Shown piece after piece: positions 40,740 to 63,455 of a DNA stretch of 64,000 nucleotides. Made by a program: the position numbers and the translations under genes. The number at the start of each line of letters is the position of its first letter. The first letter of the stretch is position 1. Location: the NCBI GenBank assembly GCA_903879335.1, contig CAIRLC010000011.1:62001-126000 (forward strand). The letters are read 5' to 3'. Source of the DNA: an uncultured Pseudomonadota bacterium. Lineage in GTDB: Bacteria > Pseudomonadota > Gammaproteobacteria > Steroidobacterales > Steroidobacteraceae. The notes under the pieces were generated by a model. The model saw only the letters and a list, made by a program, of their open reading frames with translations, made no database searches and had not been told where the DNA came from.

Positions 40740-40750
40740 ACAATTGTTAG
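40740..40750. promoter_or_regulatory. Operator-like ACAATTGTTAG site between flavoprotein and MarR genes
   Basis: ACAATTGT (40740-40747) is a perfect 8-bp palindrome continued as TAG on the right. It is 85 nt upstream of the MarR ATG and 121 nt upstream of the flavoprotein ATG, so it could control both divergent units. Confidence 0.55.
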
Positions 40751-40834
40751 TGTTCAAAGGCGAGTCGGAATGTGACCGGCGAGCCTCGTATAGAGAATGT
40801 AGAATGAAGGCCGTCACACCGGGAGTCATGATTG

Positions 40835-43469: not shown

Positions 43470-43521
43470 GGTTTGCGCGGACGAAGGCTTGCCTCGCAAG
43501 CGGAGATTGCCGGGCTGAACC

Positions 43522-43533
43522 TAACAATTGTTA
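43522..43533. promoter_or_regulatory. 12-bp perfect operator palindrome TAACAATTGTTA
   Basis: The sequence is a perfect palindrome, the most symmetric copy of the shared motif, 47 nt upstream of the start at 43580. It lies where a promoter for the two following genes would be expected. Confidence 0.65.
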
Positions 43534-43579
43534 TACTCGAAACATTACTAGGGGGACGACCATCGGTCGTGGGTAGTTC

Positions 43580-46611: not shown

Positions 46612-46690
46612 CCGAATCGGAACTGAGGCCTAGAGTCATAGACACTGAGATGCGCGGCCGAAAACCTTTGTGCCTATGCGTACATGGGCA

Positions 46691-46717
46691 TTCATGAGTT
46701 CGCTCATGGATAATTTT
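46691..46717 (+). terminator. UUCG-loop hairpin after the PQQ dehydrogenase
   Basis: TTCATGAG and CTCATGGA pair (6 perfect bp plus a G-U and an A-T) around TTCG, followed by TAATTTT. It is 80 nt after the stop, so a weak terminator. The rest of the gap 46612-46944 has no gene. Confidence 0.5.
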
Positions 46718-46944
46718 CGGAAATTCCGCCGTGTTAAAACGTGCATATCGTTCCGATTAACGTCTAGCGACCGGCGGTGCGTTGCCGGGTCGCGCCGTCT
46801 CGACGGCGTGGCTCGGCAAACAACCATCGCGGATGAGCGGACGTAGTCCGGATCAACCCACCAAGACGTCAAACACGCCACGTATAGATTGATTGCATTG
46901 TCCCACCGAACACTGTGTCTTCCACGACATTGATGGAGAGCCCG

Positions 46945-47649: not shown

Positions 47650-47770
47650 TAGGCTCTAATCCCCCTGCCTTGACGCGCGCGCGGCTCATGACCTGAGCCG
47701 CACGCGGGCTCGGCCGCGATGAACGCTGCAACGCAGCCATCGCTATCAAGTTCTTGAATTGGGGTCACGG

Positions 47771-48619: not shown

Positions 48620-49115
48620 TCAATACTCGACGCTTGAATTGCCTCGCCTAGAATTCGTGTTTGAAGTGCGACTGCAGTTCACGCGAGTGATGGCGGTACC
48701 CAACGTCCCGAATGGCGGATTCCGTTCGGCCGTGCTGCTGGACGGCGGCACCTTCGAAGGTCCGCACCTGCGAGGTCGGGCCATTCCGAATAGTGGCGGT
48801 GACTACGCGCATTTTCGTGCCGATGACACAGCCGTATTTGATGCGCGCTATCTCTTAGAAGTCGACGATGGATCGATCATCTATATGCAGAATAAGGGCT
48901 TCTTGTGGGGTCGGAAGCCAGATTCGATGCAGCGGTTGCGTGCGTGGGCGTTTCAGGGAGGGCCGCCCGTCGCCCATGAGGACTACTATCTGCGTGCGCA
49001 GCCTACGTTTGAGACTTCAGTCGGACCACACGATTGGTTGACGCGGCATGTTTTTATCGGCGTCGGCGAGCGCAAACCCGATGGTAATGTCGTTCGCTAC
49101 TATAAGCTGGCGTAA
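48612..49115 (+). CDS. DUF3237 family protein
   Basis: This 167-aa DUF3237 protein has the barrel-like pattern LEFVFEVRLQFTR, LLDGGTFEGPHLRGRAIPNSGGDY, YLLEVDDGSIIYMQNKGFLWG and YYLRAQPTFETSVGPHDWLTRHVFIGVG. As I recall, the sphingomonad PhcF and PhcG decarboxylases, which turn carboxylated phenylcoumaran dimers into stilbenes, carry this domain, so decarboxylase activity is a plausible inference. It is the second gene of a pair with a CmcJ-like oxygenase and only distantly similar to the second DUF3237 protein at 57506. Confidence 0.83.
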   Translation: MSDQYSTLELPRLEFVFEVRLQFTRVMAVPNVPNGGFRSAVLLDGGTFEGPHLRGRAIPNSGGDYAHFRADDTAVFDARYLLEVDDGSIIYMQNKGFLWGRKPDSMQRLRAWAFQGGPPVAHEDYYLRAQPTFETSVGPHDWLTRHVFIGVGERKPDGNVVRYYKLA

Positions 49116-49178
49116 CGCCAACCGATCGCCGATCGGCTGGCGTTAGCCAAAACGATAAGCCGTTTTTTATAACGGCTT
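49114..49178. terminator. Two hairpins between convergent genes
   Basis: AACGCCA and TGGCGTT plus an inner CCGATC/GATCGG stem (49114-49144, one mismatch) follow the DUF3237 stop at once. AAGCCGTT/AACGGCTT (49157-49178) with a TTTTAT loop overlaps the end of the NmrA gene. Together they look like a bidirectional termination zone. Confidence 0.55.
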
Positions 49179-50093
49179 CACCGCGCGTAAGAGATCGCGA
49201 TTGGCCTCAATCATTGCTCTCACAGACCGCGCGGGGCGACCGGTGAGTTTTTCGACATCGCCGGTGCAAATATCCAAATGCCCCCCTCGGATGGCTTGCT
49301 CGAAGCTCACCATGTCTTCGCTATTCCAAGGAATACCCGCGACACTCAAGTCATCCACGGGTTTGCGCGGAATCCCCATCGCATCAAAATGTGCATACAT
49401 GCCATCGTCGGTGGTCTCCTCCAACTGCACGGGATGGCCGCTGACTTCGCTCAACATCTCGGCGACTTCGGCAAAGTTTTCGCGATTGGGCCCAGTGATT
49501 TCGTAGACCTGGTTTTCATGTCCAGGTGTGGTTAACACCGCAACCGCGGAATCGACGCAGTCTTCGCGCCACACCATAGCTTCGCGGCCTCCAGCGGTGC
49601 TGGTCAGCCATCGGCCAGAGGCAATAAAGCCTGGCCCCGCATTCAAGATCATGGCATCCGCGTAGTGAGCGTCACGCAGGAAAGTGTAGTCCAGGCCGGT
49701 TTCCTGAATGATGCGTTCCGTTTCCCGATGATCCTCGGTCACGATGGCCGGGTTCTCAGGGCTCACGTTCAAGAAGCTCGTATAGACGATGTGCCGAACC
49801 CCCGAGCGCACCGCGGCGTGAATGGCCGCCTCATGTTGACGAATTCGCGCACCAACGCGAGTACCTGAAATCAGTAGCAGCTTGTCTGCCCCGTCGAAGG
49901 CGTACTTCAAGGACTCAGGGTGGTCGAAATTCCCCGCGCGAACTGCGCAACCGACATGCGCACGATCAGCCAATTTAGCCGGCGTGCGCGTGACCAGGAT
50001 CAAATGCTTCGCATAGCCTTGGGCAATGAGCCGGTCCGTCGCCAACTGTCCGTAGTGCCCTGAGGCTCCGGTAATCGCGATTGTCGGCAACAT
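49167..50093 (-). CDS. NmrA-like NAD(P)-binding protein (QorB-type)
   Basis: This 308-aa protein is an atypical SDR with the cofactor loop ITGASGHYGQLATDRLIAQG, VTRTPAKLADRAHVG and AFDGADKLLLISG, as in NmrA/QorB quinone oxidoreductases. A later segment (FLRDAHYADAMI, EITGPNRENFAEVAEMLSEVSG) is also typical. It lies 4 nt after the stilbene-oxygenase-like gene in the same operon, and could reduce a quinone or an aldehyde made in the pathway. No catalytic Tyr-Lys pair of classical SDRs is evident. Confidence 0.85.
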   Translation of the reverse strand: MLPTIAITGASGHYGQLATDRLIAQGYAKHLILVTRTPAKLADRAHVGCAVRAGNFDHPESLKYAFDGADKLLLISGTRVGARIRQHEAAIHAAVRSGVRHIVYTSFLNVSPENPAIVTEDHRETERIIQETGLDYTFLRDAHYADAMILNAGPGFIASGRWLTSTAGGREAMVWREDCVDSAVAVLTTPGHENQVYEITGPNRENFAEVAEMLSEVSGHPVQLEETTDDGMYAHFDAMGIPRKPVDDLSVAGIPWNSEDMVSFEQAIRGGHLDICTGDVEKLTGRPARSVRAMIEANRDLLRAVKPL

Positions 50094-50097
50094 GACC

Positions 50098-51567
50098 TTA
50101 CACCGCCCCGGCTAGGTCTGTGGCGGCAACCCACCAGCCATGCACCTGAGGTCGCAAGCGATGCGGCACCGTGATTTTCGCAACCGGGCCCGCGCCTAGA
50201 TTGCCCGCATCGATGATCCACAGCGCGTGATGGAAATCATGAGGTCCAATCTGATGGTCAACGACGGTCAACAGCCACCCCTCATGGCTCGGGTCCGAGG
50301 CCGGCACATGCACGGGTTCATTGAAGCAATGGGCCGGCGGCAGGCCCAAGGCTTGCGGCGGCTTGCCGGTGTGATCGAGACGCAGAAGCAAATTAAACAT
50401 CGCGCCGACGGGACCGCCAGCAACCGGAGGCCCCTTCATCTGCGGATTCATCGTCAACATCCAACCGTGATCATAGGGTCGTCCTTGCTTGTTCGCAGGA
50501 ATGACTGGGAAGTCGCCCGGGGGACCGATGACCTGAGCGGTAACGGCAGTGCTGCCATCCTTGAGGTCCACCGTCCATCGCTCTAAGCGGCCTCCCGCTT
50601 GGTCAGGGGGCAGATTGAGCCCCGATGCCCGCTGAATAAACGGAAACGCATTGACGCTCGAGAGGCACTGATCAAAATGAATCCGGCCCTCGTTATCTTC
50701 GAAGGCATTCATCATGTGATAGCACGAGACGCCTTTAGGACCTTTAAACCAGCGCATCTCGGAGACGTCGCCGTAGCGCGGCAGAATGCCGAGCCAGCTA
50801 TCGCGCTCCATCTCATGGACCCAATGATCGCCGCCGGCACGGAGTCGATCCGCATCCGATGTGGTTGGATAGATCGGGAAGAGCGCGTAATGCTCAGTAA
50901 TCGTGAAGTCATGCATCATCGCGCAGTACGGCGCGTCGAACCATTGCTCGCTGATGAGATCGCCGTCTTTGTTCGCGATGCAGTAGGCGACCTTCGTCGA
51001 GGCTAGACCATCCGCCTCGTAGCCGAAGAAAAACAGCTCCCCGCTGACTGGATCCACCCGGACATGTGCAGTCACCGTTTGCGACTTCAGTTTTCCGCCG
51101 AAGTCGTATCGGCCGCGAGTCTCTAAGGTGGTGGGGTCAACCTGATAAGGGCGACCGTCTTCCTTCGTCATGAGCAGACGGCCGGCATGCCAAACCGGGG
51201 TGGTATTTGCCACGGTACGGTCTACACCGGCCACTTCCGGCCGATCGGTATAGGGATTTCGATACTTGCCGAATAAGGCCCGCCCGGCGGCAGCCTCCGC
51301 GAGGTGCCGCTCCGTCGCGACGTATCGGATCGCAAAGCTGGCTTTGCCATCGTTGAGGCGAAACGCAGAGATCATTCCATCCCCGGAAAGCACCGCACCG
51401 CCGTCTTCAAGGTAGGGGGGATACACGGGATCTGGCGTGGCTCTAAAAAACGACCCCTGAACATCGTCCGGGATAGCGCCTTCCACGGCGAGTTCTTGGA
51501 ATTCGTATTCGTCGCCGATCGGTGTGTTGAGCCCGATGTAGTCCAAAGTGGTCGGAAAATGACCCAC
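50098..51567 (-). CDS. Carotenoid-oxygenase family, lignostilbene-dioxygenase-like enzyme (paralogue 1)
   Basis: This 489-aa protein is a carotenoid cleavage oxygenase. The four iron histidines are H168 (TAHVRVDP), H219 (MMHDFTIT), H284 (YHMMNAFE) and H476 (QVHGWWV). Compared with lignostilbene dioxygenases the phenol-binding Tyr and Lys are present (Y102, K135), but the Phe59 position is Leu60. It cleaves a C=C bond between an aryl group and its partner, for example in lignostilbene or isoeugenol, giving aldehydes. A TAAC-N4-GTTA operator lies 20 nt upstream of its ATG. It forms an operon with the NmrA-like gene. Confidence 0.88.
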   Translation of the reverse strand: MGHFPTTLDYIGLNTPIGDEYEFQELAVEGAIPDDVQGSFFRATPDPVYPPYLEDGGAVLSGDGMISAFRLNDGKASFAIRYVATERHLAEAAAGRALFGKYRNPYTDRPEVAGVDRTVANTTPVWHAGRLLMTKEDGRPYQVDPTTLETRGRYDFGGKLKSQTVTAHVRVDPVSGELFFFGYEADGLASTKVAYCIANKDGDLISEQWFDAPYCAMMHDFTITEHYALFPIYPTTSDADRLRAGGDHWVHEMERDSWLGILPRYGDVSEMRWFKGPKGVSCYHMMNAFEDNEGRIHFDQCLSSVNAFPFIQRASGLNLPPDQAGGRLERWTVDLKDGSTAVTAQVIGPPGDFPVIPANKQGRPYDHGWMLTMNPQMKGPPVAGGPVGAMFNLLLRLDHTGKPPQALGLPPAHCFNEPVHVPASDPSHEGWLLTVVDHQIGPHDFHHALWIIDAGNLGAGPVAKITVPHRLRPQVHGWWVAATDLAGAV

Positions 51568-51586
51568 GGTACCCCCCTGTTAACCT

Positions 51587-51599
51587 TAACTAATGTTAG
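51587..51599. promoter_or_regulatory. Operator-like TAAC-N4-GTTA site
   Basis: TAACTAATGTTAG has arms TAAC and GTTA as in the 43522 palindrome. It lies in the 70-nt gap between the CmcJ-like gene's stop and the oxygenase start, suggesting a separate promoter for the oxygenase gene. Confidence 0.5.
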
Positions 51600-51637
51600 A
51601 ACAATAGGCGGGATGTCGGGTCGTTTGCAAGCCTCCT

Positions 51638-52435
51638 CTAGGCAAACCAAAGGGCGAGCGCTCGCATCTCCAGACTGCTCCGAGGAGCCACATTCGGCCC
51701 ACAGCGATGATCATCAAATGCAACGTGCGGCACGCACCGGGCACCGCTAAGGTCGCTATCGTTGGTCTTAAAGACAATAACCTCCGTGGGGTTCATATCC
51801 GGATACCAATGCCAGCGATGGTTTAGGTTGTGAGCAACCACTAAACCTTCGAACGACCATTCCGGTTGGCCGGGCGCATCAAAAATCGCATCAGCCGCGA
51901 TGAGGTCGTCCTCGGAGACGCTGCGGGCGTCACAAAGCGCTAGGGGCACATCCTGAGGGGGCGGAGAAATCACTCGCCAAACGTTGTAATGCGCGTAACG
52001 CCGAAGTTTGGAATTTGGCGGTGCAGCCCGTTGCGCGAATTCCTGCGCGGTACGGGAACTGATATCGACATGTGCAAAACGAGCCGGCCGTGAATTATTG
52101 AGTTGCCCCGACAATTCAGATTTCTCGCTGAAGCGTAAGATGCCCGGACTGCTGACAACGACTTGATCAGCACCACTGACCTGGCCAATCAATTTGATAA
52201 TTTCGTCGCGATGCCGGGTATTTACCTGCGTCGCGTCGGTGAAATCTTGCACGCCGCTGTGATGATTGAGGAGCACGAAGCCTTCGCGGTCGAGGCTCGT
52301 CTGCAGGCCACGGGCTGAATGGATGTCCATTTCCGTGGGCGCCATGTGCAGCAGATCGCGATCATGTTGATTGGCGTAATAGCGCGGCCTCGCCACGTCG
52401 CGACCGCTGTAAGCAATGATCCCTCGCGTATCCAT
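51638..52435 (-). CDS. CmcJ/NvfI-family putative Fe(II)/2-oxoglutarate oxygenase (second copy)
   Basis: This 265-aa paralogue of the gene at 47771 keeps the facial triad H122-x-D124 (ARFAHVDISS) and H237 (RCVPHVAFDD), and the NVWRVISPPPQDVPLALCDARSV and HRWHWYPDMNPTEVIVFKTNDSD blocks. ATG 52435 follows an AAGGGGGGG site. It is preceded 28 nt upstream by a MarR gene on the same strand and followed by the oxygenase operon, so a MarR-CmcJ-oxygenase-NmrA order. The function is unproven. Confidence 0.78.
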   Translation of the reverse strand: MDTRGIIAYSGRDVARPRYYANQHDRDLLHMAPTEMDIHSARGLQTSLDREGFVLLNHHSGVQDFTDATQVNTRHRDEIIKLIGQVSGADQVVVSSPGILRFSEKSELSGQLNNSRPARFAHVDISSRTAQEFAQRAAPPNSKLRRYAHYNVWRVISPPPQDVPLALCDARSVSEDDLIAADAIFDAPGQPEWSFEGLVVAHNLNHRWHWYPDMNPTEVIVFKTNDSDLSGARCVPHVAFDDHRCGPNVAPRSSLEMRALALWFA

Positions 52436-52463
52436 CCACCCCCCCTTTACGCTCACAAGGCAC

Positions 52464-52886
52464 TTAGGGCGCCGAGTCACCCCATAACGCCATCAGGATC
52501 GGTAAAACGTGCGCCCGCAGTGATGCCGGCACCTGATTCAGCAACGCCATCTCGTAGTCGTCAACCCGTTGGCGCGCCTGCGTCAGGATGGATTGTCCAT
52601 TCGGCGTTAATTGGAGAGCCCGTGAACGTCCATCGATTTGCTGGCGTTCGATCAAGCCCTGTTTTTCCAGTCGCGCGATGAACGGGACCATGTTGGCACG
52701 CTGAATATCCAAAATTCGACCCGCCTGACTCTGACTGACCCCGGGCTGCGCATCGATGAGCATCAGCAAGGCAACATCTGCATGGCGTAAATGCAACGGC
52801 TCTAAGCGCTCATTGAGCTTCGCGAGTGCCGCCGCAGAGGCGCGCCGAAGTACGTAGCCGGGATATCGAGCAAGTGGGTCCTGCAT
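52464..52886 (-). CDS. MarR-family transcriptional regulator
   Basis: This 140-aa protein has a MarR helix-turn-helix (HADVALLMLIDAQPGVSQSQAGRILDIQRANMVPFIARLEKQGLIER) and wing DGRSRALQLTPNG. It heads a minus-strand gene set including the second CmcJ-like enzyme and faces the hydratase-lyase gene divergently across 202 nt. Repeats in that gap (52934-52966) are candidate operators. It is distinct from the MarR proteins at 40835 and 55485. Confidence 0.87.
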   Translation of the reverse strand: MQDPLARYPGYVLRRASAAALAKLNERLEPLHLRHADVALLMLIDAQPGVSQSQAGRILDIQRANMVPFIARLEKQGLIERQQIDGRSRALQLTPNGQSILTQARQRVDDYEMALLNQVPASLRAHVLPILMALWGDSAP

Positions 52887-53088: not shown

Positions 53089-53922
53089 ATGACTGAACGC
53101 ACAGAAGCCGATACCGTCGCCGTGACCGTGAAAGATGGCATTGCTTGGGTCCGATTCAATAGACCTGAGAAGCGAAATTGCATGAGCCCGAAGCTCAACC
53201 GTCAGATGTTGCGCGTGCTCACCGATCTCGAATTCCGTGATGACGTCGGCGTCGTTGTCCTCAGCGGCGAAGGCACCGCTTGGTCTGCGGGTATGGATCT
53301 CAAAGAATACTTCCGGGATACGGAGGCGCTTGGATTACCCGGCATTCGCCAATCACAACGTGAAGCCTATGCGTGGTGGGAACGCCTGCGCTGGTTCCAA
53401 AAAGTCACGATCGCGATGGTGAACGGTTGGTGCTTCGGCGGTGGTTACGGTCCGCTGTATTCGTGCGACCTTGCCTTCTGCGCTGACGAGGCGGAATTCG
53501 GCCTATCGGAAATCAACTGGGGCATTTTGCCGGGTGGCGGCGCGACCAAGGTGGCCGTCGAACTCATGCCTATGCGCAAAGCGATGTATCACGCGCTGAT
53601 GGGTGAAAACTTGACCGGTAAGCAAGCTGAGGCCGCGGGTCTCGTGAATGAATCACACCCGGTCGCCGCGCTAGAGGCACGCGTCAACGAGGTGGCGCAG
53701 AAATTATTGAAGAAGAATCTAGATACCCTCAAGGCTACCAAGGATGCCGTCCGTCGCGTGCGTGAGATGACCTATGACAATGCTGAGGACTATCTCATCC
53801 GCGCACAGGAAGCGCTGAACTTCCATGACAAGTCTGACGGACGCCACATCGGCATGAAGCAGTTCCTCGATGAGAAGTCTTACAAGCCTGGATTGGGTGA
53901 GTACGATAAGAAAAAGTCCTAA
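53089..53922 (+). CDS. p-Hydroxycinnamoyl-CoA hydratase/lyase
   Basis: This 277-aa crotonase has the features of feruloyl-CoA hydratase-lyase (Ech/HCHL/FerB): RPEKRNCMSPKLNR, WSAGMDLKEYF, TIAMVNGWCFGGGYGPLYSCDLA and FGLSEINWGILPGG, with E141 matching the catalytic E143 of the Pseudomonas enzyme, and the C-terminal GMKQFLDEKSYKPGL. It hydrates a hydroxycinnamoyl-CoA and splits it to an aromatic aldehyde and acetyl-CoA. The residue matching Ser123 of that enzyme is Gly121, a possible specificity change. GGAG precedes the ATG. A CoA ligase follows 35 nt downstream. Confidence 0.9.
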   Translation: MTERTEADTVAVTVKDGIAWVRFNRPEKRNCMSPKLNRQMLRVLTDLEFRDDVGVVVLSGEGTAWSAGMDLKEYFRDTEALGLPGIRQSQREAYAWWERLRWFQKVTIAMVNGWCFGGGYGPLYSCDLAFCADEAEFGLSEINWGILPGGGATKVAVELMPMRKAMYHALMGENLTGKQAEAAGLVNESHPVAALEARVNEVAQKLLKKNLDTLKATKDAVRRVREMTYDNAEDYLIRAQEALNFHDKSDGRHIGMKQFLDEKSYKPGLGEYDKKKS

Positions 53923-53957
53923 GCACATAACGTCGATCCACGCTGGAGCCATTGCTG

Positions 53958-55457
53958 ATGCCGTTGATTGATGCGGTCGCAACTCACGCTCGTTCACATC
54001 CCAATCAGCCGGCGCTGTGGGACCTTGAATCGGAGCGGCAATGGACTTACGCCGCGCTCGATGCCACGGTTGATCGTCTCGCCGCATGGTTGAGCGATCA
54101 TCTGGGCGCGGGTAGCGGCTCGCGTGTGGCGACACTCGCTAAAAACTGTGGCGAGATCGTCGCGCTACAGCTGGCCTGCGTGCGTGCCGGTGCGATCTTC
54201 GTTCCGCTCAACTGGCGCCTAGCCGCGGCAGAAATAACAGCGCTGGCGCACGATGCGGCGCCTGTGCTGTTATTTAAAGATGACGATTTTGAGGCCCCCG
54301 CGGCGATTCCTGAAGTGCTGCCGATTAGCGTGACGCTGACGCTCGGCCACGACGGATCAAAGCCCCCAGCGCAGGCTCGTCGACCATTTGAGGCCACGAG
54401 CACCTTGTTGTATTCCTCCGGCACCAGCGGACGCCCGAAGGGCATCATGCTGTCTGAGTCGAACGTTTTTTGGGGTTGTGTCAATTTCATTTATGGCTGT
54501 GCAGTCACGCGTACGAGTGTTTTTTTGTGTGATATGCCGCTGTTTCATACTGCAGGCCTGATGGCTGCGACGCGAGTCCCGCTCCAAGCCGGTGCATGCG
54601 TGCTGCTGACGAAAGGGTTTGATCCAACAAGAACGCTGCACCGGCTCGCCAATCCTGAATTGCGCGTCAGTCATTACTTTTCGGTCCCACAAATGGCGGC
54701 TCGGCTTTGGAACGAGCCGGGCTTTCAACCTCAGTCTCTGCGCCACATCGTTGCGTGGGCCATCGGCGGGGCGCCTAACCCAAAAGCGCAAAGCGAGCGA
54801 TTTGTGAACGCAGGCATTCGCATCTCCGAAGGCTTCGGGATGTCGGAGACGGGCTCTAACTTCGGCATGCCGACCCAAGATATTGATGTCCTGCGCCGCA
54901 AAGCGGGAAGCTCTGGACTGCCGTTCATGGCCATCGAAGCTAAAATTGTCGATGAAGAGGGTCACGATGTGGCGGCTGGCGAAGTCGGCGAGCTCTTGCT
55001 GCGCGGACCTTCCATCACGACGGGCTATTGGAATCAACCGGAGACCACGGCGAAGGCGTTTCGTGACGGCTGGTTCTGCACCGGAGATGCCGCGCGCAGC
55101 GATGAAGACGGCTTCTACTACATCGTGGATCGGCGCAAGGATATGTATATCTCAGGTGGCGAAAACGTCTACCCCGCAGAAGTTGAAGCAACCATTGCCG
55201 AAGTCACCGCGGTTGCGGAATGCGCCATTGTTGGCGTTCCCGACGAACAGTGGGGTGAAGTGGGTCGAGCTTATATTGTGCCGGTCGCCGGCGCGACGTT
55301 GACACCAGACACCATTCGCGAACATTGCTTGGCCCGACTGGCGAAATACAAAATTCCGAAAAGTATCGTCGTAACCGACACATTGCCGAGGACGGCGTCG
55401 GGCAAAGTCCAAAAGCACATCCTTCGTCAGCGGGCTTTGGACGAACTGTCCGGCTAA
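53958..55457 (+). CDS. Hydroxycinnamate-type CoA ligase
   Basis: This 499-aa acyl-adenylate enzyme has LLYSSGTSGRPKG (ATP loop), GMSETGSNFG, YIVDRRKDMYISGGENVYP and PRTASGKVQK, whose lysine catalyses adenylation. It is paired with a hydroxycinnamoyl-CoA hydratase-lyase, so it most likely activates ferulate or a substituted cinnamate. ATG 53958 has GGAG upstream; the TTG six bases earlier is less likely. A MarR gene on the other strand ends 28 nt after its stop. Confidence 0.88.
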   Translation: MPLIDAVATHARSHPNQPALWDLESERQWTYAALDATVDRLAAWLSDHLGAGSGSRVATLAKNCGEIVALQLACVRAGAIFVPLNWRLAAAEITALAHDAAPVLLFKDDDFEAPAAIPEVLPISVTLTLGHDGSKPPAQARRPFEATSTLLYSSGTSGRPKGIMLSESNVFWGCVNFIYGCAVTRTSVFLCDMPLFHTAGLMAATRVPLQAGACVLLTKGFDPTRTLHRLANPELRVSHYFSVPQMAARLWNEPGFQPQSLRHIVAWAIGGAPNPKAQSERFVNAGIRISEGFGMSETGSNFGMPTQDIDVLRRKAGSSGLPFMAIEAKIVDEEGHDVAAGEVGELLLRGPSITTGYWNQPETTAKAFRDGWFCTGDAARSDEDGFYYIVDRRKDMYISGGENVYPAEVEATIAEVTAVAECAIVGVPDEQWGEVGRAYIVPVAGATLTPDTIREHCLARLAKYKIPKSIVVTDTLPRTASGKVQKHILRQRALDELSG

Positions 55458-55484: not shown

Positions 55485-55973
55485 TCAATCCGTCGGAAAC
55501 CAGCCGTGGATCCGAGACAGCAGCTCAATCAATGTCGACACTTCGGCATCTGAGAAGCGTGACTTCAGCCACTCTTCGTGTTGATTGATCAGCGCCTTGG
55601 CTGAGGAGAGCACCTGGTTCCCGTCATCGGTCAAATAGAGCGCGTGTTTTCGACCATCATTCGGCGAGGGCTGCCGTTCCAGCAAGTTTCGCGCTTCCAG
55701 TCGATTCACCACCGCCATGGTCGTTGCCCGATCCATGCGCATCCGTCGGGCTAAATCGCTTTGAGCAATCTGGGGATGATCGCCGACTAACCACAACATA
55801 GAGACTTGTTTCTGGGTCAAATCCAGCGAGGTAAACGCTTCAGTAAAATGCCGATAGACAGCACCCTGTGCGAGTCGGATGTGAAATCCTACGATGTTGC
55901 GGATTTCGCCGAGGTCTTCATCCCCGGGACGAATCGGTTCCGGCGTTGCGAGGATTTTCTTCTTACGTGCCAT
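55485..55973 (-). CDS. MarR-family transcriptional regulator
   Basis: This 162-aa protein has a lysine-rich N terminus (MARKKKILATPEP), a MarR helix-turn-helix (LTQKQVSMLWLVGDHPQIAQSDLARRMRMDRATTMAVVNRLEARNLLER) and the wing NDGRKHALYLTDDG. It is divergent from the second stilbene-cleavage-type oxygenase and shares a 65-nt intergenic region that contains a TTGTTAGTG half-motif, a classic setting for autoregulation and control of that operon. Confidence 0.88.
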   Translation of the reverse strand: MARKKKILATPEPIRPGDEDLGEIRNIVGFHIRLAQGAVYRHFTEAFTSLDLTQKQVSMLWLVGDHPQIAQSDLARRMRMDRATTMAVVNRLEARNLLERQPSPNDGRKHALYLTDDGNQVLSSAKALINQHEEWLKSRFSDAEVSTLIELLSRIHGWFPTD

Positions 55974-55986
55974 CCGTCTATCCAAG

Positions 55987-56002
55987 CAATATTTGTTAGT
56001 GT
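55987..56002. promoter_or_regulatory. Half-motif between MarR and oxygenase genes
   Basis: CAATATTTGTTAGTGT resembles the shared site (CAAT...TTGTTAGTG); the right half TTGTTAGTG is identical to the one at 40744. It lies 37 nt upstream of the oxygenase GTG and 14 nt upstream of the MarR ATG. Confidence 0.5.
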
Positions 56003-56038
56003 AGCGTACAAAACCAAGTCATCTAGAGGGTGCGGGAC

Positions 56039-57502
56039 GTGGCTAACTATCCAAAATCCATGAGCTTCACGGGCTTTAATACGCCGTCGAGGGTTGAAGC
56101 CGACAGCTTGAATCTCGTTCACGAGGGTACCATCCCGGAAGGTCTGAATGGAGCCTTCTACCGCGTCCAGCCAGATCCTCAATTTTCCCCGCGACTCGGT
56201 GACGACATCGCATTCAACGGTGACGGGATGATCACCCGCTTCCATATCCATGATGGTCAATGTGATTTTCGCCAGCGTTGGGCACAAACCGATAAGTGGA
56301 AATTAGAAAGCGCCGCCGGTAAGGCGCTGTTCGGTGCGTACCGCAATCCACTCACGGATGACGAGAGCGTCGCCGGCAAAATTCGCGGCACGGCCAACAC
56401 CAACGCATGGATTTACGGCGGCAAGCTCTATGCGCTGAAGGAAGATTCTCCGGCGCTCGTGATGGATCCAGTGTCCATGCAGACCGAAGGGTACACGTGG
56501 TTCAACGGAAAAATGACCGGCCAGACCTTCACGGCACACCCGAAGGTCGATCCTAGAACGGGCAACATGATCGCTTTCGGTTACGCCTCCTCTGGTCTAT
56601 GCACTGATGATTGCACGTACTATGAGATAAATTCCGATGGCGAATTGATACGCGAATTGTGGTTCAAGGCGCCTTACTACTGCATGATGCACGACTTCGC
56701 GATTACCGAAGATTACGCGTTGTTCCATATCGTGCCGTCTATTGGCAGCTGGGAACGATTACGTAAGGGACTGCCGCACTTCGGTTTTGACACAACACTG
56801 CCGGTCTACTTTGGTATGCTCCCCCGTCGTGCCGGAGCGACAGCCGAGGATATTCGCTGGTTCATACGCGATAATTGTTTCGCCAGCCACGTCCTGAACG
56901 CTTATCAGGAAGGGTCGAAGATTCACTTCGACATACCAGAAGCGAAGAACAACATGTTCCCGTTCTTCCCGGACGTTCATGGCGCACCCTTCAACGGTCG
57001 CGAGGCGATGAGCTATCTGACACGTTGGACCTTTGACATGGATTCAAGCAGTGACTCATTTTCGAGCGTCACGCGCTTAACACAGACCGCAGCCGAGTTC
57101 CCTCGCATCGATGATCGATACACCGGTTTGCCATATCGGTACGGTTGGCTGCTCGAAATGGACATGCAACGCCCGGTAGATCTGCGCGGTGGTAGCGCCG
57201 GCGGCTTGCTGATGAATTGCCTGTTTCTTAAAGATATGGTCACGGGCGCCGAGCAGCATTGGTGGTGTGGTCCTGTATCGAGCCTGCAAGAGCCCTGCTT
57301 TATTCCGCGCCACAAGACGGCAGCCGAAGGCGATGGATGGATTATTCAGTTGTGCAATCGCCTCGACGAGCATCGAACTGATCTCTTGATCTTCGATGCA
57401 CTCGACATTGAGAAGGGACCGATTGCGACGATCAATGTGCCGGTGCGCATGCGTTTTGGCTTACATGGGAATTGGGCCGACGCAGATACCATTGGCCTCT
57501 AA
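56039..57502 (+). CDS. Lignostilbene-alpha,beta-dioxygenase-type carotenoid oxygenase (paralogue 2)
   Basis: This 487-aa protein matches lignostilbene dioxygenases residue for residue at key places. Counting from GTG 56039, F59, Y101 and K134, the phenol-binding set described for LsdA, and iron ligands H167 and H218 keep the same numbers; the others are H284 and H476. It should cleave the central double bond of 4-hydroxystilbenes to two aldehydes. AGAGGG lies before GTG 56039, and homology with paralogue 1 supports this over GTG 56030. A DUF3237 gene follows after 3 nt; a MarR gene is divergent. Confidence 0.92.
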   Translation: MANYPKSMSFTGFNTPSRVEADSLNLVHEGTIPEGLNGAFYRVQPDPQFSPRLGDDIAFNGDGMITRFHIHDGQCDFRQRWAQTDKWKLESAAGKALFGAYRNPLTDDESVAGKIRGTANTNAWIYGGKLYALKEDSPALVMDPVSMQTEGYTWFNGKMTGQTFTAHPKVDPRTGNMIAFGYASSGLCTDDCTYYEINSDGELIRELWFKAPYYCMMHDFAITEDYALFHIVPSIGSWERLRKGLPHFGFDTTLPVYFGMLPRRAGATAEDIRWFIRDNCFASHVLNAYQEGSKIHFDIPEAKNNMFPFFPDVHGAPFNGREAMSYLTRWTFDMDSSSDSFSSVTRLTQTAAEFPRIDDRYTGLPYRYGWLLEMDMQRPVDLRGGSAGGLLMNCLFLKDMVTGAEQHWWCGPVSSLQEPCFIPRHKTAAEGDGWIIQLCNRLDEHRTDLLIFDALDIEKGPIATINVPVRMRFGLHGNWADADTIGL

Positions 57503-57505
57503 GCC

Positions 57506-57967
57506 ATGATCAAACCGGATCTTGAGTTTGTCTACGAGGCGACTGGGCAATTAGAGGCGCCGATCCCTATCGGCGCGACCGCGGACGGCGTAAGACGCAT
57601 CATTCCAATTTTGGCCGGCGGCTCGGTCGAGGGGCCCAAGATCCGCGGCGCATTGCTGGGCAACGCCGCGGACTGGCAATTGACCCGTCCCGACGGCGTG
57701 ACAGTCGCTGATGCGATGTATGCGTTGCGTACCGATGACGGGGTCATCATCCAGATTCGCAATCGCGGCCTGCGCCACGGACCACCCGACGTGATGAAGC
57801 GCTTGGTCGCTGGGGAGACGGTAGACCCGGCGGAGTACTACTTCAGGACAGTGCCTGAATTCATTGCTCCCGCCGGGCCCTATGACTGGCTGAATCGCAG
57901 CATCTTCATCTGTTCGGGCGCTCGCTACGCCAGCAGTATTCGTTTGTGGGTGTGGCGCGTGCTCTAA
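57506..57967 (+). CDS. DUF3237 family protein (second copy)
   Basis: This 153-aa DUF3237 protein shows LEFVYEATGQLEAPIPIG, GGSVEGPKIRGALLG, YALRTDDGVIIQIRNRG and YYFRTVPEFIAPAGPYDWLNRSIFI. It begins 3 nt after the stilbene-oxygenase gene, clearly cotranscribed. A decarboxylase making the stilbene that the oxygenase then cleaves would fit the PhcF/PhcG precedent. It converges with the next MFS gene with a 4-nt overlap. Confidence 0.83.
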   Translation: MIKPDLEFVYEATGQLEAPIPIGATADGVRRIIPILAGGSVEGPKIRGALLGNAADWQLTRPDGVTVADAMYALRTDDGVIIQIRNRGLRHGPPDVMKRLVAGETVDPAEYYFRTVPEFIAPAGPYDWLNRSIFICSGARYASSIRLWVWRVL

Positions 57968-59568
57968 ACAGGCTCACCAGCCGCTTGTGCCCGGGCGAGC
58001 AATGAGGCCTCGTCACGCTTCACACGCAATGCCAACAACACCAGCATGGCCACAATGGCTGGAGCAACCCAATTGATCGACAAGATGGCATAAGCCAAAT
58101 TCCCGCCGGTCGCGTCGGACACCATGCCGACCATAAAGGGGCCGATGCCGAGCCCAAAGATCGTCGACAGGATCACGTAGGTGCTGCTCGTGATACCGCG
58201 CATTCTCGGCAGAACCTGATCAAACATGATCGCGTAGAGCGGCGGCAGCCAGCCGGTCAGCACGACGCTGTAGACGACGAAGCGCGTGTAAAACTCACTT
58301 GGAGATTGGGCGCTGTAAACCCAGAAGGCGATCAATGGCGATAAGCCCAGTGATACCAAGGTGACCCATGCGCGACCCGCGCCTGGGAGTCGTGCGTGCA
58401 GCTTATCCGACAGAGGCCCGGCAATCATGGGGCCGATGATGCCGATCACCGCCGATAGCAAACCGAACTGCAAACCGGTCGTGGCTGGGGATAAGTGAAA
58501 GGTCTTCATCAGGAAGGACGGCGTGAAGCCCATGATTCCGTAATTGATCATGGTCTGCAGCGACCCGATGGCCATACATAGGATCAGGGACGGCGACGTG
58601 GTCAACACCGCATGCGTCACGGGATCAGTCAATCGCAAGGTCTGATACAGATTGAAGACCACCGCCACACCAAATGCAACGACTCCCCATTGCAAGGCAT
58701 GGGGATTGATCTGCCATGAACCGATGTGCAGGAATGGCCGCGGAGATAGAGCCGACGTCCAGGTGGTCAGCGCCATGGCTAACGCAATAATCAACGCCAT
58801 CACAGAAAGATTGGCCAACCACTGGCGCGTTTTGGCTCGACGAACCACGAGCGCAAACCAGTTGCTGACGGGGGTGACGGAGGCCAACAGCCGCAAGCTC
58901 TCCATGAAGGGCCGCTCGAAGGTCTTTGAGGCGATGCCGTCTAATCGCCCGCGTACCGGCTCCGGCAATCGGAAGAGGAGCGCGCTCACCACAAAGCCCG
59001 GGATCGCAGCCAGCACGAAGGCGAACTGCCAACCGTGCAAGCCCAGTGGCGCGCTGTCGCTGGAGTAGAGGTGATCCCACCAATCGGCGGCCACGCCGCC
59101 GAGCACCGAGGAGCCACCTAAGCCCAAGGCAATCGCAGCCGCAATGACGGCCATGGCAAAACCGCGCTTAGGCTTTGGGTAGTGGTCGAACACCAACGAG
59201 GTTCCACCGGGTCCAGCGACACCCTCACCGATACCGACGCCCAGTCGTGACAGGGCCAACACGGAAAAGCCGTGGGCCATGCCAGCCAACGCGGTCGCCA
59301 CCGACCAGAAGGCAAGCGCAATGCTCAACAACCGCGTACGGATCCATGTATCCGCGAGGCGTCCCAAGGGGAGTGAGAACAGCGCATAGAAAAGAGCGAA
59401 GACGGTGCCGTAGAGCAAACCCATCTCAGCATCACCAATGAGCAGGTCCTTCTTGATGCGCGGGGCCAATATCGCGAGGATATTTCGGTCGAGCAGGCTG
59501 AGCGCATTGGTCAGTGCCACTAAGGTGAGCGCGTAACCGGCACTGGTCGAGAGTGTTTTTCGATTCAT
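57964..59568 (-). CDS. MFS transporter (last gene of ligW operon)
   Basis: This 534-aa MFS protein has NALSLLDRNILAILAPRIKKDLLIGDAEMGLLYGTVFALFYALFSLPLGRLADTWIRTR at the start, the pattern of spinster-like and aromatic-acid transporters. ATG 59568 overlaps the LigW stop (ATGA). It probably moves an aromatic acid across the inner membrane. A second MFS gene heads the same operon at 63417, so uptake and release or two substrates may be involved. Confidence 0.87.
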   Translation of the reverse strand: MNRKTLSTSAGYALTLVALTNALSLLDRNILAILAPRIKKDLLIGDAEMGLLYGTVFALFYALFSLPLGRLADTWIRTRLLSIALAFWSVATALAGMAHGFSVLALSRLGVGIGEGVAGPGGTSLVFDHYPKPKRGFAMAVIAAAIALGLGGSSVLGGVAADWWDHLYSSDSAPLGLHGWQFAFVLAAIPGFVVSALLFRLPEPVRGRLDGIASKTFERPFMESLRLLASVTPVSNWFALVVRRAKTRQWLANLSVMALIIALAMALTTWTSALSPRPFLHIGSWQINPHALQWGVVAFGVAVVFNLYQTLRLTDPVTHAVLTTSPSLILCMAIGSLQTMINYGIMGFTPSFLMKTFHLSPATTGLQFGLLSAVIGIIGPMIAGPLSDKLHARLPGAGRAWVTLVSLGLSPLIAFWVYSAQSPSEFYTRFVVYSVVLTGWLPPLYAIMFDQVLPRMRGITSSTYVILSTIFGLGIGPFMVGMVSDATGGNLAYAILSINWVAPAIVAMLVLLALRVKRDEASLLARAQAAGEPV

Positions 59569-60620
59569 AGGCGCAACCACCGCTCTGCATTGGTTTGCAT
59601 CAGCTTCTTCTTGGTGCTCAAGGGCACGTCGAGCAGATCGTGGACGCGTACCTCATCGGGTTCAAACTGATAGGGATAGTCCATCGCATACAAGACGCGA
59701 TCCTCGCCGATGACCTGCTGTAAAAAGCGGATCGCGGGTGCCCATGCCATGCCGCTGGTCGTGACGAGCACGTTGGACTGCAGGTAGCCCAAAATCGTCT
59801 TGTTGAGGGGCTTCATATGGGCATAGCGCTTGGAGCGCACGCCCGCCTGATGCATGTAATCCAAGCGGTAGGCCCAGTATGGCAAGGCTTCACCTGCATG
59901 GCCCACCATAATCTGCAGATCGGGGTAACGATCGAAGATCCCGGTGGTGATCAGTTTCAACAAATGCATCCCCGTTTCGACGCCGAAGCCGAAAATGGCA
60001 CCGTCCAAACCTGCTTCTAACATCGGTCCGATCATGGCATCCGGCGGCGTGGACGGGTGGATGTACAAGGGTTGACCGGTATCGGCCAAGGCACGAAAAA
60101 TGGGATCAAATTTAGGCAGGTCTAGATACTCGCCTTGTGTGTGACTGTTGATCTGGACGCCCTTGAAGCCTAGTTCGCGTGCACCGCGGCGTATTTCTTG
60201 CGCTGACCAGTCCGGGTCTTGGGGCGCGACAGTCGTCATACCGACGTAGCGGGTGGGATTGGCCTTGCAATGCTCGGCGAGGTAATCGTTCGCCCGTTGG
60301 GCGACGCCTTTGGCCTCCTCAAGATCCAGCATCGGCTGCGCGCCGGGAGCGGTCAGCGCCAAAATAGCGCGATCGATACCAGTCTCATCCATGTGCTGTA
60401 AGCGCGTGGGACCGAGATCCATCAAGCGCTCGAGCACCTGCGTCGCGCGGGCCGAAGGACTCGTGCCGTAAAAACCCCAGAGGGATTGCATGCCGCGATC
60501 GGCCGTACCATCCCGCACCATGCGCAAATAGATATCAACTTGCTCGCGAGTCGCAAACGCTTCTTCAGTGGCGATGCGCAGATAGCCTCGATCACCACCG
60601 GTTTTGAGTTCATGAGTCAT
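59565..60620 (-). CDS. ligW: 5-Carboxyvanillate decarboxylase
   Basis: This 351-aa amidohydrolase-superfamily decarboxylase matches LigW at the functional positions as I recall them: metal ligands E19, H188, H241 and D314, and substrate-binding R58, T90, F212 and R252, all at the same numbers. TEEAFATREQVDIYLRM, QINSHTQGEYLD and VLYAMDYPYQFEPDEVR are typical blocks. The reaction is 5-carboxyvanillate to vanillate plus CO2, with a Mn ion. It lies 3 nt after an aldehyde dehydrogenase gene, which could make its substrate from 5-carboxyvanillin. Confidence 0.93.
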   Translation of the reverse strand: MTHELKTGGDRGYLRIATEEAFATREQVDIYLRMVRDGTADRGMQSLWGFYGTSPSARATQVLERLMDLGPTRLQHMDETGIDRAILALTAPGAQPMLDLEEAKGVAQRANDYLAEHCKANPTRYVGMTTVAPQDPDWSAQEIRRGARELGFKGVQINSHTQGEYLDLPKFDPIFRALADTGQPLYIHPSTPPDAMIGPMLEAGLDGAIFGFGVETGMHLLKLITTGIFDRYPDLQIMVGHAGEALPYWAYRLDYMHQAGVRSKRYAHMKPLNKTILGYLQSNVLVTTSGMAWAPAIRFLQQVIGEDRVLYAMDYPYQFEPDEVRVHDLLDVPLSTKKKLMQTNAERWLRL

Positions 60621-60623
60621 GCT

Positions 60624-62051
60624 TCACCCTTCGTGAACGGTCTTGACCACCAAACACGCCATCAAGCCTTCAGGGCCATCTTCATGACCGTGACCGGACC
60701 ACTTCACACCACCAAAGGGCGCATCGGCACCCGCCATGATCGTCGTATTGATGCAGAACATGCCTGCTTCGACTTCACGAGCGAGTCGTTTCTGTCGTCG
60801 GGAATCTTGGGTCCAGCTATAGGCGGCCAATCCATAGGGCAGACGATTGGCTTCAGCAATCATCTCCTCCTCCGTGTCATACCCATTGATGAGTGCCACG
60901 GGACCGAATGGCTCTTCATTCATGATCGCTGTGGTCAAGGGAATCTCGGACAACACTGTCGGCTGATAGAAAAACCCACGGCCATCGATACGCTCACCGC
61001 CAGTGTGCAGACGGGCGCCAGCAGCCACCGCGCCATGAATCAAATGATCAATGGCCGGCGGGCGTCGCGGGTTGGCGAGCGGTCCCATTTGGATGCCCTC
61101 CGCCATTCCGTCGCCCACCTTCAGTTGGGCAGCGCGCTGGGTGAACCCCTTCCTGAATGCATCAAAAATGCCGGACTGGACGATAAACCGAGTAGGCGAC
61201 ACGCACACCTGACCCGCGTTGCGGTATTTTGACGCAACGAGTGCGTCCAACACTTGATCAATCAAGACATCATCAAACACCAGGACGGCGCCGTGTCCAC
61301 CCAGTTCCATCGTGGTTCGCTTGCAGTCATCGGCGGCCAATTTCATCAGGTGCTTGCCGACGACCGTTGAGCCCGTGAAGCTCAGCTTACGAATGATCGG
61401 AGACGCCAACAGATGACGGGACACTTCATCCGGGACACCGAAAACCGCCTGTCCGACTTCTTTGGGCAGACCGGCGTCATGCAAAGCCTGTAAGACCGCC
61501 AGCGCAGACGCCGGCGCTTCCTCTGAAGCCTTAAGGATCACGGAGCAACCTGCCGCAATGGGCGCACCCAGTTTTCGACCAGGGTTGCCGATGGGGAAAT
61601 TCCATGGGGCAAAGGCCGCGACCGGGCCTACCGGTTCATAGGTGACCGTGGAACGCATCCCGTGCGGGCGAACGAGTTGTCGACCGTAGATGCGCTGGCA
61701 TTCACCGGCGTAAAAATTAAATAAATTGACGACCATCATGACTTCGATGCGCGTCTCAGCCAGCGTTTTCCCTTCTTCCATCGTCGCGATGCGGGCAATC
61801 GACTCCTGCCGCTCCACCAATAACCGCGCAGCGCCGGTTAACACGGCAGCACGTTGCTGCGCCGTTGAGTGACGCCAAACCTCAAAGCCCCTCTTCGCGG
61901 TCTGCAGCGCCCGATCCAAATCAGCGGCATCGGCGAGTGGCAAGTCGGCAAGAATTTCACCGGTGGCCGGATTGATCACCGCATGCGAACGACGATGCCC
62001 AACCGGCACACGTTCGCCATCAATCAGCAAATGTAGAGTGGGGTACGTCAT
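60624..62051 (-). CDS. NAD(P)-dependent aldehyde dehydrogenase of the ligW operon
   Basis: This 475-aa enzyme has APWNFPIGNPGRKLGAPIAAGCSVILKASEEAP, FTGSTVVGKHLMK, the glutamate E249 in MELGGHGAV, and the nucleophile C283 in NAGQVCVSPTR. It resembles succinate-semialdehyde and vanillin dehydrogenase-type members. It is sandwiched between an MFS gene (4-nt gap) and ligW (3-nt gap), so oxidation of 5-carboxyvanillin or a related aldehyde is the best inference. Confidence 0.9.
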   Translation of the reverse strand: MTYPTLHLLIDGERVPVGHRRSHAVINPATGEILADLPLADAADLDRALQTAKRGFEVWRHSTAQQRAAVLTGAARLLVERQESIARIATMEEGKTLAETRIEVMMVVNLFNFYAGECQRIYGRQLVRPHGMRSTVTYEPVGPVAAFAPWNFPIGNPGRKLGAPIAAGCSVILKASEEAPASALAVLQALHDAGLPKEVGQAVFGVPDEVSRHLLASPIIRKLSFTGSTVVGKHLMKLAADDCKRTTMELGGHGAVLVFDDVLIDQVLDALVASKYRNAGQVCVSPTRFIVQSGIFDAFRKGFTQRAAQLKVGDGMAEGIQMGPLANPRRPPAIDHLIHGAVAAGARLHTGGERIDGRGFFYQPTVLSEIPLTTAIMNEEPFGPVALINGYDTEEEMIAEANRLPYGLAAYSWTQDSRRQKRLAREVEAGMFCINTTIMAGADAPFGGVKWSGHGHEDGPEGLMACLVVKTVHEG

Positions 62052-62055
62052 AGGG

Positions 62056-63417
62056 TTACCTAGCTGTATTGCCTAAAGCGTTTAATCGTTCAACTTCTAA
62101 ACCGTAGGGCTTGATGCCCCGAGAGATCGCGAACACTGCGATGGGCATCAGCACCGCCGCGGTTACAACCAAACTCTTCCAAAGCATCGCATCCGAATGG
62201 AATACCCGCTGGGTCAAGCTGCCAATAAGCTGTCCACCGAGCGCGCCGAATACGATGAACATAAAGAGATAGAAGGCCGTGACTTGGCCACGCATGCCAT
62301 TCGGCGTGATGCGTTGAATCGCGGAGTTCTGGGGAACTGCGGAGGCCAAGCCGCAGGTGCTGGCGACACCAATACAGGCGAGCGACAGTCCACCGTTCGG
62401 CATGAGTGGGGAGAGGATTTCAAACGGCATCGCGATCGCAAACAGGATTGTGGCAGCACGAACGTGAGCGTCCGCATAGCGCTTGGAGAGCCATTCGACA
62501 AAAAGCGTACCGGCAGCCGCTCCTATCAACGACGTCACGAGGAACACGAGCCCCAGCCAACGACCGATTTGCATCTCGTTCCAACCGTAGGAGCGAATCA
62601 TGAACGGCACGCGCCACACCTGCAAACCAAACGAGGTCGCCGCACTAAAGGCCAATCCAATGAACAATGGCGCATAGATGGCCCGGCGCGCATTGAGCTC
62701 GCGCAGCACCGTTCGTATGGGTAGCGGCTGACCATCCGCGGTCGCACCACGGCGTTTAGGTTCGGTCACACACAGGAGCAAAGCAGAAATGACCAGCCCA
62801 GGGGCGCCGACCATCATGAGCACCCATTGCCAGCCGTGAATGGTAAGACCCATCCAATGACTGACCGGCCATGACACCGCCAAGCCAATCAGTTGCCCGC
62901 CGAGCAAAATGCCGAGCGTGTTGCCGCCAATAAAGCCCAGCTGCAAGATGCCAATGGCTCGTGGCACCCGTTCGGGTGGGAAATAGTCCGCAATCATCGA
63001 GTACGCGCCCGGAGCGTGGGCTGATCCGCCCGCCCCGACTAACATTCGGCTCAAAAAGAGTTGCACGAAACTCTGTGCAAGACCGCCTAAAGCAGTGATC
63101 CCGCCGATCAAGGAAATACCCACCGCGAGGACGTATTTGCGAGGGTAGATATCCACGAGGCGCGCTAATGGGATGCCCACGAGCACGTAGAAAATCACGT
63201 TCGCAGGACCTATGAGGAAGCCCAGCTGCTCATCCGTCAATTCAAAGTCGATTTTGATGCGCTGCGCCATCATGCCGAAAACTTGCGCATCAAAGAAATT
63301 CAACATGGTCGCCAAAATGATCACGGCCAGTGCAAAGTAGGCCGCACGTGACGAGGGCCACGGTTGTTCGTTCACCGCTGAATTGAGCGTCATGGACCCG
63401 GTCACTTGGTCAGTCAT
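62056..63417 (-). CDS. MFS transporter (first gene of ligW operon)
   Basis: This 453-aa MFS protein has LATMLNFFDAQVFGMMAQRIKIDFELTDEQLGFLIGPANVIFYVLVGIPLARLVDIYPRK, the D1 helix pattern of aromatic-acid and spinster-like symporters. ATG 63417 follows AAGGGGG. It is the first of four genes (MFS, aldehyde dehydrogenase, ligW, MFS) with gaps of only 4, 3 and -4 nt. The promoter region carries an inverted repeat at 63456-63474. Confidence 0.88.
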   Translation of the reverse strand: MTDQVTGSMTLNSAVNEQPWPSSRAAYFALAVIILATMLNFFDAQVFGMMAQRIKIDFELTDEQLGFLIGPANVIFYVLVGIPLARLVDIYPRKYVLAVGISLIGGITALGGLAQSFVQLFLSRMLVGAGGSAHAPGAYSMIADYFPPERVPRAIGILQLGFIGGNTLGILLGGQLIGLAVSWPVSHWMGLTIHGWQWVLMMVGAPGLVISALLLCVTEPKRRGATADGQPLPIRTVLRELNARRAIYAPLFIGLAFSAATSFGLQVWRVPFMIRSYGWNEMQIGRWLGLVFLVTSLIGAAAGTLFVEWLSKRYADAHVRAATILFAIAMPFEILSPLMPNGGLSLACIGVASTCGLASAVPQNSAIQRITPNGMRGQVTAFYLFMFIVFGALGGQLIGSLTQRVFHSDAMLWKSLVVTAAVLMPIAVFAISRGIKPYGLEVERLNALGNTAR

Positions 63418-63455
63418 ACACACCCCCTTAAGACCTCCGCTTTACAAGTCGCGGA

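Follow-up and report, generated by a model that had tools for sequence, protein, structure and literature searches.

The analysed window, a stretch of 64,000 nucleotides, contains on the forward strand a gene for an LsdD/NOV1/LSD4-type lignostilbene α,β-dioxygenase (56039–57502), followed by a gene for a DUF3237 protein (57506–57967). Both open reading frames are intact; that of the dioxygenase reaches from an alternative GTG start at 56030 to a stop ending at 57502 and, after a gap of 3 nt, the DUF3237 frame begins with the ATG at 57506, the arrangement that an earlier note on this DNA had described. The lsdD-linked DUF3237 protein, a proposed decarboxylative stilbene-forming enzyme, is termed DUFb, and the second DUF3237 copy of the window (48612–49115) is termed DUFa. 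An MFS transporter gene (57964–59580, reverse strand) is convergent with the DUF3237 gene, their 3' ends overlapping by 4 nt. On the same reverse strand, synteny places a LigW-type amidohydrolase decarboxylase gene (59565–60620; 63–75% identical to the full-length copies in loci L051, L055, L076 and L078), a FerD-type aldehyde dehydrogenase gene (60624–62051; 73–75% to the copies in the same four loci) and the MFS transporter gene of the β-5 cluster (62056–63423). On the other side of lsdD lie a MarR-type regulator gene (55485–55985, reverse strand), whose product shares 59% identity with DesR (SLG_12870), the MarR regulator encoded next to lsdD in SYK-6, and, both on the forward strand, genes for an AMP-binding enzyme (53952–55457), proposed as a feruloyl-CoA synthetase, and for an enoyl-CoA hydratase family member by Pfam (53089–53922), proposed as a feruloyl-CoA hydratase/lyase. 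By identity and synteny, lsdD, ligW and ferD occur together in the window as a β-5 cluster.

Between the MarR gene and lsdD, a site on the forward strand (55995–56009) resembles the SYK-6 DesR operator IR-R with 3 of 15 mismatches. Two such sites occur in the window compared with 0.73 expected, two being reached in 17 of 100 shuffles, and the second falls inside the DUF3237 gene; taken alone, 55995–56009 is a weak candidate for a DesR-like operator. Among 79 lsdD promoters, 63 carry a DesR-like site with at most four mismatches, against approximately 3% of mononucleotide shuffles. According to PMC6888825, SYK-6 DesR binds the SLG_12860–desR intergenic region, represses desB, ligM and desR, and has vanillate and syringate as its inducers.

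Started from the GTG at 56039, the dioxygenase has 487 residues in register with NOV1 and LSD4, whose structures (5j53 and 6xm6, respectively) are the nearest solved ones, and it matches the RPE65 family of Pfam with 434.7 bits. All 15 positions checked in NOV1/LSD4 numbering, drawn from the LSD4 structure paper (PMC8191317), are kept: F59, Y101, N120, T121, K134, E135, H167, H218, S283, H284, E353, S386, A387, E418, and H476. The set includes the four iron histidines, the three second-shell glutamates and F59/Y101/K134, so that the retention of the histidines and of these three residues, claimed in the earlier note, is confirmed by the alignment, and the DCA-S-contacting S283, S386, and A387 are all present. 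The enzyme is 75% identical over 487 residues to SYK-6 LsdD/LSD4, the sole member compared of the LSD1–LSD4/NOV1 clade, for which the cut-off was at least 57%. Judged by sequence, it is an LsdD orthologue of the LsdD/LSD4 type and is predicted to cleave DCA-S, with vanillin and 5-formylferulate as the products. All checked catalytic and DCA-S-contacting residues are common to LsdD/LSD4 of SYK-6, NOV1 of N. aromaticivorans and the window enzyme, and the desR-, ligW- and ferD-type neighbours are the same, whereas the window host lies on the gammaproteobacterial side.

DUFb matches the PF11578 (DUF3237) profile with 147.3 bits. Its AF2 model (pLDDT 94.9, pTM 0.86) superimposes on the solved bacterial DUF3237 protein 3c5o with a Z of 24.6 and an rmsd of 1.1 over 152 residues, and on the fungal structures 6jjs (PhnH in the PDB table; Z 18.8, rmsd 2.0, 128 residues) and 9m2y (Z 17.1, rmsd 1.4, 120 residues). 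The reaction of PhnH, closure of a dihydrofuran ring, is akin to the ring opening considered here but runs the other way. From the profile match and the predicted model, DUFb is a DUF3237 member with the barrel fold of the family. Dirigent-protein and allene-oxide-cyclase barrels also matched, but no homology is claimed for them, their Z of about 9 being near the level of unrelated barrels. A family core common to DUFb and to the PhcF/PhcG-type and DUFa-type proteins is formed by E7, G39, G43, P44, G48, D56, R61, Y72, D78, I82, G88, R99, Y112, P117, F119, G124, and W128, of which D56, Y72, and W128 are kept too in all eleven other aligned DUF3237 paralogues. The window protein shares 74–82% identity with 42 orthologues, and 35 columns are invariant in 44 rows; the structure alignment took in 42 of 58 DUFb orthologues and the tree 19 of 58.

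The nearest published chemistry belongs to other members of the family. PhcF and PhcG convert DCA-CC to the stilbene DCA-S, and together with PinX they are described as homologous decarboxylases in pathways that end in lignostilbene dioxygenases (PMC12997858). Deletion of PinX, a DUF3237 protein with 42% identity to PhcG and 38% to PhcF, causes lariciresinoate to build up (PMC12607616); ring-opening DUF3237 decarboxylases that form a stilbene-type double bond are represented in these two sources by PhcF/PhcG and PinX. The premise of the earlier note, that DUF3237 proteins decarboxylate phenylcoumaran acids, therefore holds for the family, but DUFb belongs to a different clade. DUFb has the family, the core residues and the partner types (GMC oxidase and lignostilbene dioxygenase) in common with PhcF/PhcG of SYK-6; however, it shares only 35% and 32% identity in the multiple alignment with the SYK-6 tandem pair called PhcF/PhcG from position alone, and it is linked to lsdD instead of phcCD/lsd7. 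The pair lies at C1:996932–997910 and lsd7 at about 1.004 Mb, and phcFGH is placed within about 5 kb of lsd7 in PMC8191317. The identification of the window DUFb as PhcF or PhcG was rejected, since the lsdD-linked DUFb orthologue of SYK-6 is found at 1.401 Mb and the tandem pair near lsd7.

In a DUF3237 tree of 43 rows, the DUFb clade has a support of 100/99 and stands apart from a second clade (98/93) that contains the SYK-6 pair, DUFa and others; DUFb thus groups neither with the pair nor with the PinX-like DUFa, the pair and the PinX-like copies being named by position. The identity table and the tree exclude the partial DUF3237 places in L107 and L108 (2 of 22), and the deeper joins are unsure because several long branches there carry warnings. 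DUFb and DUFa are 36% identical in the multiple alignment and 40% over the local BLAST alignment, and the substrate of DUFb is probably of the β-5 type and that of PinX β-β. The position of DUFb outside the clade of PhcF/PhcG and DUFa, with 32–35% identity to the pair, counts against the reading preferred below, namely that DUFb supplies LsdD with its stilbene. The same separation favours an alternative that is possible, though we would lean against it, in which another dimer is the substrate of DUFb or its step follows that of LsdD, the linkage reflecting a shared regulon and not consecutive steps on carboxylated DCA. Under this alternative, DUFb might take an S-type, H-type or side-chain-reduced β-5 acid, or serve as a helper for the PcfL quinone methide; it is also favoured by SYK-6, which has PhcF/PhcG for DCA-CC, yet keeps DUFb and a third GMC paralogue beside lsdD.

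The pairing is more than chance: among the best 80 of 232 lsdD loci, 58 have a DUFb orthologue (identity of at least 60%) on the 3' side of lsdD, in the same orientation and no more than 5.6 kb away. The gap is at most 100 nt in 31 of these 80 loci, 20 having a 4-nt overlap, and three of the 22 loci without a linked DUFb have less than 1 kb of flank. A frequent gene order is desR-type MarR, lsdD, DUFb, MFS, ligW-type, ferD-type, NTF2 and MFS, which, from sequence comparison, fits the published β-5 cluster. Ten open reading frames between lsdD and DUFb were scanned, comprising four GMC oxidoreductases of the PhcC/PhcD family, three beta-lactamase-fold proteins, and one each of zinc alcohol dehydrogenase, DEAD helicase and HAD hydrolase. 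The beta-lactamase-fold gene, perhaps encoding an esterase, is situated between lsdD and the DUF3237 gene in L038 (11536–12768), L028 (4003–5232) and L056 (11687–12883).

The partners of DUFb were tabulated for those 61 of the 80 loci whose downstream flank measures 9.9 kb or more, the 19 shorter ones being left out, and PcfL-type NTF2 genes were counted at 40% or more identity to the window copy. DUFb is accompanied by NTF2 without GMC in 27 loci, by GMC without NTF2 in 14 and by neither in 6; where DUFb is missing, NTF2 alone is seen in 11 loci, NTF2 with GMC in one, and none of the three genes in two. The 15 GMC-bearing loci hence consist of 14 with DUFb and without NTF2 and one with NTF2 and without DUFb, and a GMC oxidase of the PhcC/D family stands beside lsdD in 14 of the 22 loci without a PcfL-type gene there. 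These paralogues occur near lsdD–DUFb in L051 (13228–14847), L032, L033, L039, L056, L057, L064, L065, L066, L068, L072, L073, L075, and L081, and share 71–87% identity with the L081 copy. The SYK-6 copy shares only 37–40% identity with the presumed PhcC and PhcD, encoded by two GMC genes beyond lsd7; SYK-6 therefore appears to hold two parallel sets of GMC and DUF3237 genes. In the two loci without any of the three genes, L012 and L062, a DUFb orthologue (77–78%) is present elsewhere in the genome, so that all 61 loci have either NTF2 by lsdD or a genomic DUFb. The other 13 genomes searched yielded no DUFb orthologue (best 55%, over partial length), and the 12 of 61 loci whose genomes gave none all have the NTF2 gene by lsdD.

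For the 61 loci, Fisher tests, post hoc and ignoring kinship, gave p = 0.0025 for genomic DUFb versus NTF2 by lsdD and p = 1.8e-7 for GMC versus NTF2; DUFb versus GMC (p = 0.15) and DUFb versus NTF2 by neighbourhood alone (p = 0.064) were not significant. Parsimony on the lsdD tree, with three gamma loci and the window added by hand and the NTF2 state of L010 left open, infers eight losses of DUFb, all on NTF2-bearing branches (rough p = 0.017, post hoc). No phylogenetically independent pair test was significant, the pairs being too few for significance. Neither gene is visible in five of the 19 shorter loci (L010, L036, L054, L058, and L059), and the genomes of L010 and L059 gave no DUFb orthologue; these two may be exceptions to the pattern of a PcfL-type gene or DUFb. 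In addition, the four lsdD loci closest to that of the window, from gamma MAGs that are possibly incomplete, have no DUF3237 gene beside lsdD or elsewhere in the MAG; this, and the lack of a nearby GMC partner in the window genome, are observations against the preferred reading. The absence from these four loci, the eight inferred losses and an in vitro reconstitution of the pathway without DUFb, reported in PMC11323797, could also point to a non-catalytic DUFb that has a binding or an accessory role or whose gene hitch-hikes in the operon. Such a role is improbable in our judgement: the identity of 74–82% among orthologues, the 35 invariant columns and the fit of the modelled barrel to solved DUF3237 proteins speak against it.

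The N. aromaticivorans β-5 route comprises PcfL (Saro_0796), FerD (Saro_0797), LigW (Saro_0799) and LsdD (Saro_0802); deletion of pcfL accumulates DC-C one for one, and five extracts that include no DUFb convert DC-A completely in vitro (PMC11323797). DUFb is accordingly not required in that route as described there. The published deletion data suggest that the DUFb clade is unable to replace PcfL on the alcohol DC-C, and both the stall and the DUFb-free extracts fit a DUFb that needs an acid rather than the alcohol. PcfL deformylates an alcohol, whereas the reaction proposed for DUFb is the decarboxylation of an acid. The presence of DUFb in N. aromaticivorans is expected from N. subterraneum (L055) and the two gene numbers between ligW and lsdD. 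The stall in a strain expected to have the gene, and the DUFb-free conversion of DC-A, count against the preferred reading. The main text of PMC11323797 does not mention the conserved gene beside lsdD, and a literature search, mostly without subscription papers, retrieved no experimental work on the DUF3237 gene linked to lsdD, which is weak evidence of absence. Fitness data for N. aromaticivorans are announced in PMC11737130.

The lsdD, ligW and ferD cluster is the same in the window and in the PcfL route, but the PcfL/LdpA-type NTF2 gene of the window lies about 8 kb away (46915–47649, forward strand). Its SnoaL/NTF2 product is 51–54% identical to the lsdD-cluster copy of N. subterraneum compared with 46% to LdpA-like-looking copies, and its structure match is 8abt, which we take to be LdpA. 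Being nearer to the lsdD-cluster copy than to the LdpA-like copies, it may make PcfL chemistry available in the window genome. A PQQ dehydrogenase and an aldehyde dehydrogenase are encoded at 42000–46611. Within this region, a conserved protein without a Pfam match (43580–44437), situated upstream of the PQQ dehydrogenase, is 75% identical to counterparts in two Novosphingobium loci (L114 and L161).

Adjoining the β-5 cluster, a near-complete cluster at 38628–52480 with its own lignostilbene dioxygenase and DUF3237 genes is assigned to the pinoresinol type by synteny with contig C18 of N. capsulatum, a species named as a pin-cluster carrier in PMC12607616. It contains genes for the PinX-like DUFa (48612–49115, forward; 82% to the SYK-6 copy at 763 kb), a PinZ-like NmrA-family reductase (49167–50093, reverse; 62–63%), a PinU-like second lignostilbene-dioxygenase homologue (50098–51567, reverse; 64% to C18), a PinW-like FAD oxidase (39054–40619, reverse; 74–75%) and a small c-type cytochrome with one CxxCH motif (38628–39041, reverse). 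The PinW-, PinX-, PinZ- and PinU-like proteins share 62–74% identity with C18; by synteny, counterparts of pinU, pinZ, pinX, pinW and pinV thus occur together, that of pinV by position only. Against the SYK-6 pair, the C18 DUF3237 protein reaches 42% and 40% identity and a second one of N. capsulatum, beside another lignostilbene dioxygenase on C14, 45% and 40%. DUFa was taken as PinX-like because the C18 copy lies in a pin-type cluster and its 42%/40% is near the published 42%/38%. The pinoresinol pathway of N. rhizosphaerae LY likewise joins a DUF3237 decarboxylase and a lignostilbene dioxygenase, and a PinX/PinU-like pair is present in the window at 48612–51567. The window therefore holds two pairs of lignostilbene-dioxygenase and DUF3237 genes, and its genome has only two lignostilbene-dioxygenase-family genes that were found, both in the window, and four DUF3237 genes. 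Two similar-looking proteins without a Pfam match (47759–48619 and 51638–52480) lie inside the pin-type region; presumably they resemble a CmcJ/NvfI oxygenase-like family, and the latter is matched at 57% by a protein of the pin-type cluster of N. capsulatum (L161).

GyrA of the window genome is 69–71% identical to that of three gamma MAGs (64% and 79% to a fourth in two pieces) compared with 52–53% to five Sphingomonadales; rpoB was not found in this genome. The host, being nearer the gamma MAGs in this comparison, appears gammaproteobacterium-like, and the window lsdD groups with four gamma MAG copies in the lsdD tree. Orthologues of lsdD (best 43% over full length; 46% in one fragment) and of DUFb (best 54–56%) are absent from 59 relatives, including 14 congeners. 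A binning artefact was rejected: 14 kb past the window, this contig carries a gene, which we take to encode an ABC-F type ATPase, with matches of 70–90% identity in 13 of the 14 congeners (divided between two contigs in one of them; 41% in the fourteenth), so that the contig fits the genus. Lateral acquisition of the lsdD and DUFb genes is probably the simplest reading of these comparisons, repeated loss in the relatives being less simple. The authors of PMC12607616 saw no sign of transfer for their pin cluster.

Taken together, these observations suggest, with belief and doubt evenly balanced, that DUFb forms the stilbene for LsdD by decarboxylation in a probably laterally acquired β-5 lignin-dimer pathway, the lsdD–DUFb pair representing its stilbene end. 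The DUFb barrel would take a ring-closed dimer acid, a 2-aryl-dihydrobenzofuran-3-carboxylate or a close relative; the para-phenol would open the ether ring via a quinone methide and CO2 would be expelled to give a 4-hydroxystilbene, a decarboxylative ring opening such as a review suggests for PhcF/PhcG. LsdD, with O2, would then cleave the stilbene into vanillin and a formylferulate-type aldehyde, which FerD and LigW may convert to ferulate; from ferulate, vanillin would arise through the CoA synthetase and hydratase/lyase. Vanillate or syringate probably releases transcription through the DesR-like repressor. The acid may be supplied by a GMC oxidase in many relatives and by another dehydrogenase here. 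The DUFb route would run alongside that of the PcfL deformylase and would probably not duplicate PhcF/PhcG. Family, fold, core residues and linkage are observed; the reaction, the substrate and the order of steps are proposed, with decarboxylative ring opening considered most likely. Carboxylated dehydrodiconiferyl alcohol is one candidate substrate only, as PhcF/PhcG already serve DCA-CC in SYK-6.

Synteny with GMC genes and the complementarity to PcfL-type genes both speak for this stilbene-supplying role, and linkage and partner pattern support, without proving, decarboxylative stilbene formation upstream of LsdD. The action on another dimer, or after LsdD, considered above draws further support from the 27 of 61 loci in which DUFb occurs with NTF2 and without a nearby GMC gene. 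Against it, GMC, DUF3237 and lignostilbene dioxygenase genes recur in the pin set (PinY, PinX, PinU), the phc set (PhcC/D, PhcF/G) and the lsdD set, a similar gene logic of oxidation, decarboxylation and cleavage. The two-enzyme stilbene module of the earlier note is favoured as regards stilbene supply and is too narrow as regards its extent: an oxidising step must precede, and the lsdD-cluster GMC has no close counterpart in the window genome, the best matches being 41–42% and on other contigs. More tentatively, and with doubt somewhat outweighing belief, the DUFb clade may be a third kind of decarboxylative stilbene former, which has its own GMC paralogue in many Sphingomonadales, is evolutionarily interchangeable with PcfL and was acquired by a gammaproteobacterium together with a pinoresinol cluster.

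The β-5 and β-β units are common lignin and lignan linkages, and the window suggests that β-5 and pinoresinol clusters move beyond Sphingomonadales. Decarboxylation by cousin DUF3237 proteins is already known, and the complementarity with PcfL-type genes is the most informative result here. If the DUFb clade forms stilbenes, it would explain the conserved gene beside lsdD and provide a formaldehyde-free alternative to PcfL; lignin-dimer degraders would then have two alternative routes feeding LsdD.
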